Made by a program: the position numbers and the translations under genes. The notes under the pieces are model-generated. The model was not told the DNA's origin. It saw only the letters and a list, made by a program, of their open reading frames with translations, and searched no databases. 64,000 nucleotides of DNA, taken from contig OY997589.1 of the NCBI GenBank assembly GCA_963921825.1, positions 84,552,523 to 84,616,522 of the forward strand. The letters run 5' to 3'. Of the stretch, positions 35,206-60,341 are shown one piece after another (position 1 is the first letter of the stretch; every line of letters starts with the position of its first letter). This stretch comes from Erodium maritimum. Its lineage: Eukaryota; Streptophyta; Magnoliopsida; Geraniales; Geraniaceae.

Positions 35206-36466
35206 ATGGATACCATATCTCCTCCTACGGTTCCGAGATACTTGCAAGAAGAAGAAGCCCTAAGCGACGAGTGCCGAGACTTGCTCCGAACCCTCCCAAG
35301 AGAGAGAGGCTGGATCGGCAACCATATCTATCTCTACCAAGGCTTCTGGCTCCCTCCAAGACACCTCCAAGGGCTTCTTGCGTGCCGCGAGAACCACCAA
35401 GCTCGCGACGAGGACACCGTTTTAGTCACACACCCTAAGTCAGGCACGACCTGGCTAAAGGCCATGGCCTACGCTCTCATCAACCGATCAAAGATCCATC
35501 CCGACCACGACCATCCCTTCCTCACCACCAACCCTCACGACCTCATACTTAGAACTTCAACCTAACGGCCCCTCGAACCTCCCCGGGCACTTCCCCGTTA
35601 CGCGGATCTTCGCGAGCCACTTACCGGTAAAGGTAGTTCGTTCTCTTTGTTCTCAATCTGGTTTAGAACCAACAAGTGGTATCAGAGTCCGATTTATTAT
35701 GGACGACTCTAGTGTGAGGATCGGCAACATTATTATACACATCTAGTTTAAGGGGGAGATTGTTAGAAAAAAATATTAAACCAATTTTTGTAGTACACAA
35801 AAAGTATAAATGAGAAGAAAAGTTGGACACGGAACATAGTTACAATAAAAAAAACATGTGCTTGAGTTACTGTATGATTTACGGCTAGTTTAATTTTTTT
35901 TTCTAACAAAGGTGCTCCCAAGATCCATGAAGGGTTCTTCGTGCAAGATCGTGTACATGGCCCGGAACCCTAAAGACGTGTTCGTGTCGCTCTGGCACTT
36001 CGCTAACAAGCTCAGGCCCGAGGAGCGCGGGACAAACAAGCTAGAGGAGATGTTCGATAAGTTTTGCAATGGTGCGAACGCGTACGGTCCTTTTTGGGAC
36101 CATGTTATGGGGTATTGGAACGAGAGCTTGGAGAACCCTCACAAGGTGTTGTTGTTGAGATACGAGGAGTTTAAGGAACAGCCCGCGGGTCAGCTAAGGA
36201 GGCTTGCGGAGTTCTTGGGTTGTCGGTTTTCGCCCGAGGAAGAGGCGAAAGGGAAGGTGGATGAGATCACGAGGTTGTGCAGTTTTGATAGTTTGAGAAA
36301 CATGGAAGGGAACAAAACGGTGAGTTCGCACACCGGTATGGTTAATGAAGCGTACTTCCGTAAAGGTGAGGTTGGGGGTTGGGGTGAAGTTCTTACCCCG
36401 GAGATGGCTAAGAGACTCGATCGTATCACCGAGGAGAAGATGAATGGTTCTGGATTCAAGTTTTGA
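35206..36466 (+). pseudogene. Plant cytosolic sulfotransferase (SOT), frameshifted, with a possible transposon-derived intron
   Basis: The product resembles plant flavonol/brassinosteroid-type sulfotransferases, which move sulfate from PAPS to small hydroxylated substrates. From the ATG at 35206 the frame gives the PAPS 5'-phosphosulfate motif PKSGTTW at residues 77-83. Near 35546-35552 the frame shifts, and a stop follows at 35563; the alternative frame then continues the protein ([27 protein letters not shown]) to 35632. Exon 2 (35912-36466) starts VLPRSMK and holds the 3'-phosphate motif YMARNPKDVFVSLWHF and the C-terminal RKGEVGGWGEVLTPEM. In that last region the usual GDWK is GGWG, so the PAPS-contacting lysine is missing. 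Total length, about 326 residues, is normal. The gap 35633-35911 is bounded by GT and AG and is LTR-element DNA. Most plant SOT genes I know lack introns. The frameshift makes it a likely pseudogene unless it is a sequence error. Confidence 0.85.
35635..35908 (+). mobile_element. TRIM-like LTR remnant inside the sulfotransferase
   Basis: A right-hand end repeat at 35761-35908 begins TGTTAGAAAA and ends TTTTCTAACA. Just before it is a purine tract AAGGGGGAGAT (35750-35760), and a primer-binding-like TGGTATCAGAG lies at 35677-35687. The left end repeat is only partly recognisable, so the element is broken. The direct repeat AAGGT at 35630-35634 and 35909-35913 is the target duplication in the sulfotransferase coding sequence. 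There is no coding capacity, as expected of a TRIM. Confidence 0.8.
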
Positions 36467-36834: not shown

Positions 36835-38796
36835 GTGCTACCATTCATCGCCTTCCCTGGAGGTGCAACTTTCTCCTTCCCTGTAACCAGTGCGGATGAG
36901 GACTTTCGAGCACGACACGTTCCACCGCCTGTTTTTGATGTGTCAGTCGCGCGAACAGGTTTAGGTTTAGGCGGACCATTCTTTCGAAGTTGTCATACTG
37001 CGCCAGTCGCAGATTGAGGCTGAGTTTTAGAACTCCGACACCCAAATCGTCTCGCACGACACCCATCTCGTCTCACAGGCTCGGGACCACCTGCTGAGAC
37101 TATAGATCGATAGTCAGCATAGAGATGGAGCAGCTCCGTGTAGAAGGCGATGAATGGTAGCACTTTAGGTGGCCTGGTTACAGGGAACGAGGAAGTTGCA
37201 CCTCCAGGGAAGGTTGCGCCAGATCTCTCGAGTAGAACGGGAACTGTGTCAGGGTCGTCTAAATCGGCTCCAGATGCGATTTGTAAGGTTGTGGTGAGTC
37301 AGGAAATAATTGGGGAGGATGTTGTGCAGTCAAACCGTGTTGTCACTCATTCAGAACACCCAGGAATGTTAGCTTTGATTCCGGACCAAGTTAAGACAGT
37401 GGACACCGTTTCACCGACCTTGAAGACGAACTTGAGCTCCTCTGTAGGGTCAGGTACGAAGGTTTTTGTTTTTAATATTCCTTTCGGTTCCTCTGATGGT
37501 TGGATTCGGAAAGTCTTCGGGGACATGGGAGCGATTAAATCAGCTATCGCGATAAAGCGTCCAAATCAGAAGGGTCGTTGTTTCGGTTTTGTGGATTTCT
37601 TTACGCCGGATGCCGCTCAAAAGGCAATTGATGTCTACAATGGTTTCAAGTACAATGGGTTTACTCTGTTTGTGGCTCTGGCTCGTCCGGAACAGAACCC
37701 GTTTTCGGTCAAACAGTCCACACTCTAAAAACAGAGCCTGAACACTCTTGAGTTGTCCACCGGCTTAGCTCATAATCAGAACCCTAGCGTTGAAGTTTCG
37801 GTTCACTCGTTTACACAGGAGAAAGGGGCAATGTTGGAGGACCGGAATTTGCTGAAGTTCCTGCTCGCTGGTGATCGAAAATCGACGTTGGTTGTCGACT
37901 GGTTGGCGGAGGAGATTCAGGCGCAGATTGCAAATCACCGGATGTTTCCCGATTCTCAACAGTTTTCGAAATTCAAGTCTGATTCTGGTGCGTTAAATTC
38001 GGCAGGATTGAAGGAAGTGGTTTGCACAGAATCCTCTGTGGATTTGGTTTTGCTGGAGAAGTCTCGTGATACACAAGCAACTCAGGGTGTTGCGAATCCG
38101 TCTAACAGATGTTCGGGCTCGGGAGTCCCTTTATTGAATCCGGTTTTGGGCCTTGTGGAAGCCCATTCTTGCAGAGACTCTGTTCCTTTAATTGGTTTTG
38201 AGCCTTTGGTTGATGGCTCGTCTGGTCAAGTGGCTCGTCTGGGTCGTGGGCCCACTTTTGTTCCGAAGACGATAAGTGAGGGTGACGAAGGCTCGGGTGC
38301 GAGTACCGGGGTATCGGTTGTGGTTTTGGTTGAGTGTTCTGAGCAACAGGACTTGATTGAAATTCATGTTCCAGAGGCCTCGAAGGAAGCAGAGAAGAAG
38401 GAGAGCAGTCCTTGGAAGGGAGCCCTCCTCCAACCTTGTCAGAGTCGACTTCCTACTTATACTGTCGTTACTCGATCGAGAGCCAGTTCTCGGGAACGAG
38501 CCATCAAGGCAGCGCCCCCTGTCTCAACCTTATGGAAAGCATCTCATAAGGCCCGTCAGAATTCAGCCAAGTAATTTTGTTTGGTTGTTTTTTTTTTGTT
38601 TTCTTGTTCTGTTTTCTGGATGTTTCTGTTTATGGGTTATGGTTTTCCTTATAGTTCCCCCTTAGCAGAATTCCTCTGTAAGCGTTGTTCGGGTCTTTTG
38701 GCCTCTTTTATCCTGTTTTTTCTTGAATCGGGGTCTTCCGATTCCCTTTCTTGGAATCGGTCTTTAATAAAATTTTCGAGCTTATCAAAAAAAAAA
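36835..38796 (+). mobile_element. RRM-type LINE lacking ORF2 (copy 1)
   Basis: The element holds an RRM-type ORF1 (37150-38574), a 212-bp 3' UTR ending TTTAATAAAATTTTCGAGCTTATC, and a 10-A tail (38787-38796). No reverse-transcriptase ORF lies between. The tail is characteristic of plant L1 LINEs, and RRM-bearing ORF1 is known from the BNR sub-clade of plant L1. The left ~300 bp (36835-37140) contains inverted copies of ORF1 5' segments (36842-36890 against 37146-37214), as can arise by twin priming. Total length is about 1.96 kb, close to the net 1.91 kb of copy 2. No clear target duplication was found. Confidence 0.75.
37150..38574 (+). pseudogene. LINE ORF1 protein with RRM domain
   Basis: One frame of 475 codons contains a single in-frame TAA at 37726-37728. 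The RRM lies at about residues 98-178, with RNP2 VFVFNIP and RNP1 GRCFGFVDF, both canonical. Beyond the stop the frame continues through a long Ser/Glu/Val-rich tail to a basic C-terminus (YTVVTRSRASSRERAIKAAP). The protein would bind RNA in the retrotransposition particle. With one stop and otherwise open sequence, the copy looks fairly young. An alternative reading as a host RNA-binding protein is unlikely because a LINE tail follows the ORF directly and a second copy shows the same layout. Confidence 0.8.
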
Positions 38797-59474: not shown

Positions 59475-60142
59475 CCCATGCCCGTGGATGAGGAGACGAT
59501 CCGAACGGTAAAGTGGCGTGTCCAGGTCCTTCCAGAAGAGCACCTTTAGAGTTCCTACCCAGGCTAGACCCGCGATGTCCATCCGAACGTCCACGAAGCA
59601 CCCAAACGCTTCCCCTACCTAGAAGCACGTGTGGCTATAAGGTCGTCCGAAGAGAGGTTGGAGAAGAGAAGTGAGCCTACATCTGAGTGCGGGAGAATGA
59701 GAGGATGATGGGAATGATGTAGGACTAAATATCCTTCAAGACAAAGGATGCCTGCTTGAATGACCATAGTTCGTCCCTTCGAATCCAATCCTTCCCACCT
59801 GTAAGGTGAAATAAAAACAAGATATCTCTAACCGAAGTTGTTGATGATGAGTCCGACATATTACCAATAATAATCATTTATATTAAAACCCAACTAATCC
59901 ATTACTATATCCTATATTTACCTAACAAGATAATATACAACAACGTCAACAAAAGATCTAATTGCCTCTCTAAGAGATCTGCCTGTCGCCCACCCACAAA
60001 TATTTAAATATTTCATCGGCTAAGGGTTGAAGCATCATAGATGATAGAACTATTATATCAATAGTTCCAATGGTTAAATAGCCAGTATCATGTAGCAACA
60101 CCAAGGTACCAACTACCAAAAGACTTGTTGCCACCACTCACC
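59475..60142. other. Upstream region of the second sulfotransferase copy
   Basis: 59475-59700 has coding-like composition and may continue the fragment at 56.4-56.65 kb. The rest is AT-rich. The last ~20 bases before the ATG (AGACTTGTTGCC) match the region just before the ATG of the 35.2 kb copy, which also has AGACTTGTT. Confidence 0.35.
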
Positions 60143-60341
60143 ATGGATATCAAATCTCCTCCTACGGTTCCAAGATACTTGCAAGAAGAAGAAACCCTAA
60201 GCGACGAGTGCCGAGACTTGCTCCAAACCCTCCCGAGGGAGAGAGGCTGGATCGGCAAGCATATCTATCTATACAAAGGCTTTTGGCTCCCCACTGTACA
60301 CCTCCAAGGACTTCTTACGTGTCGCGAGAACCACCAAGCTC
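60143..60341 (+). pseudogene. Truncated sulfotransferase copy (N-terminal ~66 codons)
   Basis: From ATG 60143 the frame reads [18 protein letters not shown]... and matches the N-terminus of the 35.2 kb gene at most positions ([31 protein letters not shown]). Homology stops at CCAAGCTC (60341), before the PAPS-binding motif, so no enzyme can be made. The sequence then changes to short C/T-rich tandem repeats. The two copies are paralogues about 25 kb apart. They agree strongly, so the duplication is not ancient. Confidence 0.9.

Follow-up and report, generated by a model that had tools for sequence, protein, structure and literature searches.

A probable retrotransposon fragment, framed by possible splice signals, in a broken tandem sulfotransferase gene copy

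A sulfotransferase (SOT) coding sequence in this genome is interrupted by 279 bp of LTR-retrotransposon-like DNA that begins with GT and ends with AG, raising the question of whether a transposable element has made a new intron in a flowering plant. We analysed a window of 64,000 nucleotides (C2:84552523-84616522 of a 763-Mb genome); positions below are those of the window unless a C or L name precedes them. The SOT gene copy carrying the insert, termed W, runs from an ATG at 35206 to a TGA at 36466, and its halves matched the plant sulfotransferase chain 1q44 at residues 4-112 and 146-324 and also Pfam PF00685. W is a member of a small cluster with two further copies, P57 and P58, and a 200-bp fragment. 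The gene copies, the lesions of W and the edges of the insert are as follows.

35206-35549, plus strand: 5' part of the SOT coding sequence of W, from the ATG to a 5-bp deletion
35549-35550, plus strand: 5 bp missing by alignment relative to both P57 and P58, placement uncertain by about 1 base; frame lost
35563-35565, plus strand: TAA that ends the ATG frame prematurely, 67 nt upstream of the candidate donor
35630-35634, plus strand: left AAGGT with the candidate donor AAG/GT, its GT at 35633-35634
35909-35913, plus strand: right AAGGT with the candidate acceptor AAG/, its AG at 35910-35911
35912-36466, plus strand: 3' part of the SOT coding sequence of W, 184 codons open to the TGA
C2:84624327-84625314: P57 (locus L057), the second SOT copy
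C2:84658601-84659587: P58 (locus L058), the third SOT copy

The 5' half of W was 89% identical to P58 and 85% to P57, and the 3' half was 91% identical to P57 and 86% to P58. The halves of W are thus closer to different paralogues, as would be seen after gene conversion. The 200-bp fragment, a SOT 5' end at 60142-60341, was 90.5% identical to W. Just downstream of W lies a 40-bp inverted repeat with 2 mismatches (36850-36890 and about 37174-37213), adjoined by an ORF resembling an RNA-binding-domain protein.

The first-pass annotation had proposed that a miniature LTR element inserted here, that its AAGGT target duplication supplied both splice sites and that splicing would give exactly the expected protein. 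The insert occupies 35633-35911, between AAG (35630-35632) and GTG (35912), and both its GT and AG ends and the AAGGT at either edge were found as described. P57 and P58 lacked the insert, and the length of their site equalled that of W minus exactly 279 bp, bearing out the proposal that DNA derived from an LTR retrotransposon placed AAG/GT at both edges of an otherwise continuous SOT stretch. Eight further homologues (L060 to L067) were also uninterrupted at this codon. The interruption was therefore absent at the same codon from all ten SOT homologues read in this genome, as expected of a recent gain, with further, weaker SOT matches falling outside these ten. The gaps that the homologues do contain sit elsewhere (after NR in L063 and L064, after NK of ANKVPD in L065 and near codon 198 in L066), which rules out an old SOT intron at this codon for the ten read. 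The comparison indicates that the insert is real and private to W. A potato study (PMC8707064) reports that, with 4 exceptions among 29, SOT genes lack introns.

The reading frame of W was then traced from its start codon. A 5-bp deletion about 80 bp upstream of the insert leads to the stop at 35563-35565 whatever is spliced downstream, while P58 is open for 328 codons. Read from the ATG, the joined exons of W ended in 11 residues followed by this stop, and a spliced mRNA would carry no full frame. All three frames of the exons joined by a 35632/35912 splice were read as a possible rescue, and the 3' half was open only in a frame that has neither the ATG nor the 5' half. At the insertion site the codons read V-P-L-L-P in P57, I-T-L-L-P in P58 and V-K-V-L-P in W without the insert. 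Splicing would therefore restore V-K-V-L-P locally, not a SOT. The prediction of exactly the expected protein was not borne out, as W would read HLPVKVLPRS against HAPVPLLPRS and HASITLLPRS in the paralogues and its ATG frame is already lost upstream. An assembly error or a variant of one individual could account for the 5-bp deletion. P57 has an in-frame TAG of its own, which brings the broken copies to two among the three long ones of the cluster.

Substitutions private to each copy were counted, omitting gapped codons and, in each of three parts, 2 sites (six in all) at which three different bases occur. The W branch carried 26 nonsynonymous and 21 synonymous singletons, with nonsynonymous changes below the neutral share (binomial 0.0003). 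The P57 branch carried 34 and 23 (0.001) despite its TAG, and the P58 branch carried 39 and 32, a pattern like that of W. Between the deletion and the insert lie 27 codons; dN/dS was near 1 (0.95-1.34) in all three pairs including the intact copy, and the middle-part branch counts exclude the codons of the insertion site. These counts suggest that W was constrained, and so may have been alive for most of its separate history, with the insert maybe present and spliced during part of it. However, P57, which is dead, shows constraint like that of W, and the counts can therefore be read only as a late death of both copies, not as evidence that W is alive.

The content of the insert was compared with the rest of the genome, and its pieces matched the LTR, primer-site and purine-tract regions of a gag-bearing family as follows.

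35635-35674, plus strand: last 40 bp of the family LTR, ending CCAACA
35677-35687, plus strand: primer-binding-site-like TGGTATCAGAG, then leader to about 35710-35727
35719-35760, plus strand: terminal 3' part of the internal region; purine tract at 35750-35759
35761-35781, plus strand: U3 tip in forward orientation, the 21 bp with which the LTR begins
35782-35786, plus strand: unassigned 5 bp at the head-to-head junction
35787-35908, minus strand: inverted U3, reaching from roughly its TATA box as far as the exact tip of the LTR

The primer-site-like motif, which we take to match initiator tRNA-Met, and the purine tract were present as claimed, and an internal deletion separates the leader from the 3' internal part, with its junction somewhere in about 35710-35727. 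The end repeat TGTTAG...CTAACA was present as far as its outer letters go, with TGTTAG from 35761 and CTAACA ending at 35908, but 35761-35908 is not an LTR, consisting of 21 bp of LTR start followed by inverted U3. This stretch contains a 22-bp inverted repeat (35760-35781/35888-35909, 95%), and against the family LTR, insert positions 1-41 align in one orientation and 153-209 in the other. By these alignments the end repeat consists of a single LTR tip that occurs twice, in head-to-head arrangement. The copies of the family keep the normal order of an LTR element, and one of them (L009) has two LTRs of about 285 bp that are 96% identical. A gag piece of this copy (L009:3336-3743) scored 27.6 bits against a Pfam cut-off of 27, a second gag piece fell below the cut-off and a third ORF was without a match; the source family looks copia-type.

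Among the 48 genome matches listed (best 40 of 155 candidates), all 274 bp were covered only at the insert's own site, and the next-longest matches covered 86 and 87 of the 274 bp. A second full copy would rank first in this search, and no other copies of the mosaic as a mobile unit were seen among the best-scoring candidates. A pattern taken from both tips of the insert, TGTTAGAAAAAAANATTAAAC, matched exactly at the two tips and nowhere else in the genome; with two mismatches it gave 70 matches against 67 for a reversed control, leaving only the exact count informative. The two tips differ at one of 21 positions and are closer to each other than to any other place found. That the exact pattern occurs only at these two tips favours one source molecule. 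Together these comparisons indicate that the insert is a one-off mosaic of a copia-like family and not a miniature LTR element.

The target duplication proposed earlier is plausible but ambiguous at the left edge. The right edge of the insert is an exact LTR tip followed by the 5-bp repeat, and two random 5-mers of insert-region composition would agree by chance with a probability of about 0.001; both are as expected for integrase. The left end falls inside the LTR rather than at its tip and does not begin with TG. In 18 of 28 distinct family contexts AAGGTTT directly precedes the base at which the fragment starts, so that the LTR itself could contribute the left AAGGT, whereas AAGGTAGTT occurred in none of the 28. 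Two T would therefore have been lost if the left AAGGT were LTR-derived, which argues against a simple LTR origin. The left AAGGT may be LTR sequence lacking two T or may be microhomology at which the ends were joined; a plain host duplication, its match to the LTR being coincidental, is also possible. Clear 5-bp duplications were found in two of the four family elements with both ends compared (ACCTT in L009 and CTCAA in L014/L083), with none clear in L011/L085 and L013/L088. The ACCTT at both LTR ends of L009 is the reverse complement of AAGGT, possibly by chance.

The insert is most probably a piece of retrotransposon scrap, a rearranged copia-like fragment in a recently dead tandem SOT duplicate, and not an intron of a working SOT gene. 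We infer that one of the tandem SOT copies took up, within its coding sequence, a rearranged piece of a copia-like LTR retrotransposon. The right end of this piece, an exact LTR tip plus a 5-bp repeat, would have been left as after an integrase-made insertion, and its left end would have been joined at AAGGT, a string common to the host site and the LTR, either in microhomology-mediated joining or through a microhomology deletion at a later time. A template switch or fold-back in reverse transcription, or rearrangement of the fresh insertion, most likely produced the inverted U3 within a single molecule, since the two tip copies have in common a sequence with no other exact occurrence in the genome. 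W also lost 5 bp upstream, before or after the insertion, and is now a pseudogene, and the insert therefore has no role as an intron in a functional SOT gene.

A possible alternative, one that we favour less, is decay in two steps. An LTR element in minus orientation would have inserted with an AAGGT duplication, a plus-orientation copy would have nested in it and deletions would have followed, including one that ran from the duplication's AAGGT to that of the nested LTR. Such a history would explain why the right end is exact and why the left edge falls at AAGGT. It needs several deletions, however, and the near identity of the two tips, each closer to the other than to any place found, points instead to one source molecule.

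Splicing of the insert from transcripts of the broken copy, with no working protein made, is somewhat less probable again and we consider it unlikely. Splice sites were scored with approximate plant (Arabidopsis) frequencies, and on this scale the donor AAG/GTAGTT stood at the 98.5th percentile of 7422 GTs in the window and the acceptor AACAAAG/G at the 92.9th percentile of 7341 AGs. The GT...AG ends thus have plausible sites with fair scores of the kind seen in spliceosomal introns. Rival sites nearby scored alike, with a donor at 35627 at the 97.6 percentile and an acceptor at 35793 at the 93.2 percentile, which weighs against splicing at the AAGGT repeats in a dead or a working gene. About 60 bp upstream of W, including a TATA-like stretch, resemble by eye those of the intact P58, in favour of this reading. 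If W were transcribed, splicing through the AAG/GT...AAG/GT ends is possible as a candidate event, and the product would be cut short at 119 residues; in unspliced W, translation in the VK frame would stop within the insert. An mRNA is usually marked for decay when its stop precedes a junction by more than about 50-55 nt, and the stop of W, 67 nt before the junction, should have this effect.

It is improbable that the insert was spliced as a real intron while W still worked, with both splice sites taken from an AAGGT common to host and LTR. Such an event would mean that scrambled cDNA of a retrotransposon gave rise to a land-plant intron in a single step, close in time to the death of the gene, just before it or just after. 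Still less probable is a functional, newly gained intron as first proposed, in which an insertion duplicating AAGGT created the AAG/GT donor and the AAG/ acceptor and is spliced out so that a SOT is still made. In its favour are the splice scores, an insert that is 68% AT and of a length divisible by 3, and an open 3' half. The donor score of 3.42 also lies within the range of the four inferred donors of other SOT gaps (1.26, 2.88, 4.09 and 4.56, from the same approximate frequencies), and the L065 gap likewise has AAG/GT at both ends. Against it stands the stop in the ATG frame, and the proposal of a newly gained intron is weakened because W cannot encode a SOT, spliced or not.

A miniature LTR element of its own family (TRIM or SMART type), suggested by the 274-bp size, the primer site and the purine tract, is barely credible, as genome comparison resolved the piece into a single rearranged fragment that has no direct terminal repeats (40 bp of LTR end at the left, LTR start plus inverted U3 at the right), no TG at its left end, an inverted U3 and one full-length match among the genome matches listed. 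SMART, a 292-bp LTR element of grasses, resembles the insert in size, LTR-type ends and proximity to genes but has identical 85-bp direct repeats and many copies (PMC3281118), and the insert has neither.

Among known systems the closest are the copia-type elements of this genome with LTRs of about 285 bp, such as L009, with which the insert shares the LTR end, primer site, purine tract, LTR tip and 5-bp flanking repeat. Unlike L009 it holds fragments only, rearranged in order and orientation, without a direct LTR pair and in one copy. Maize Ds insertions can be spliced from transcripts, a possible fate of the insert, and yeast Ty1 cDNA can be joined into chromosome breaks, a possible route for its arrival. 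Introners, as outlined in PMC9860276, have the same layout, with a flanking repeat that gives AG/GT at both edges. They are families of spliced introns, whereas the insert is a single candidate intron, with no similar whole sequence in other genes among the genome matches listed. The same paper reports that no introners were found in land plants. New introns of Daphnia attributed to staggered-break repair (PMC4202315) resemble the insert in short end repeats (4-12 bp in Daphnia) and patchwork content. The Daphnia cases are recognised introns in population data, whereas the insert sits in a broken gene copy. Within the titles and abstract openings of the literature on intron gain, SOT introns, break repair and transposable-element splicing, no description of an LTR-derived intron of a plant SOT was found.

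Were the insert spliced, it would document cleanly how a transposable element made an intron in a flowering plant, and the empty sites of the neighbouring duplicates would serve for comparison. On present evidence it is a curiosity between possible splice signals and not a proven new intron, and its main use is as a caution. GT and AG edges, flanking repeats and a locally restored frame are insufficient; the reading frame has to be traced from the start codon and the insert checked against the rest of the genome.

The gaps in two of the other SOT copies have features of their own. In L065 (751-2042, C1:845050-846341) a gap of 1.29 kb falls at the codon NK/VPD, where the neighbours L063 and L064 are continuous. 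The middle of this gap (about 432-1178) consists of sequence that is repeated across the genome; the outer parts gave no other match. The L065 gap is a second candidate intron gain, and the coding halves of this copy look open. In L066 (873-2322, C6:6845072-6846521) the gap near codon 198 holds a stretch of about 394 bp, which sequence elsewhere in the genome matches at up to 98% identity.
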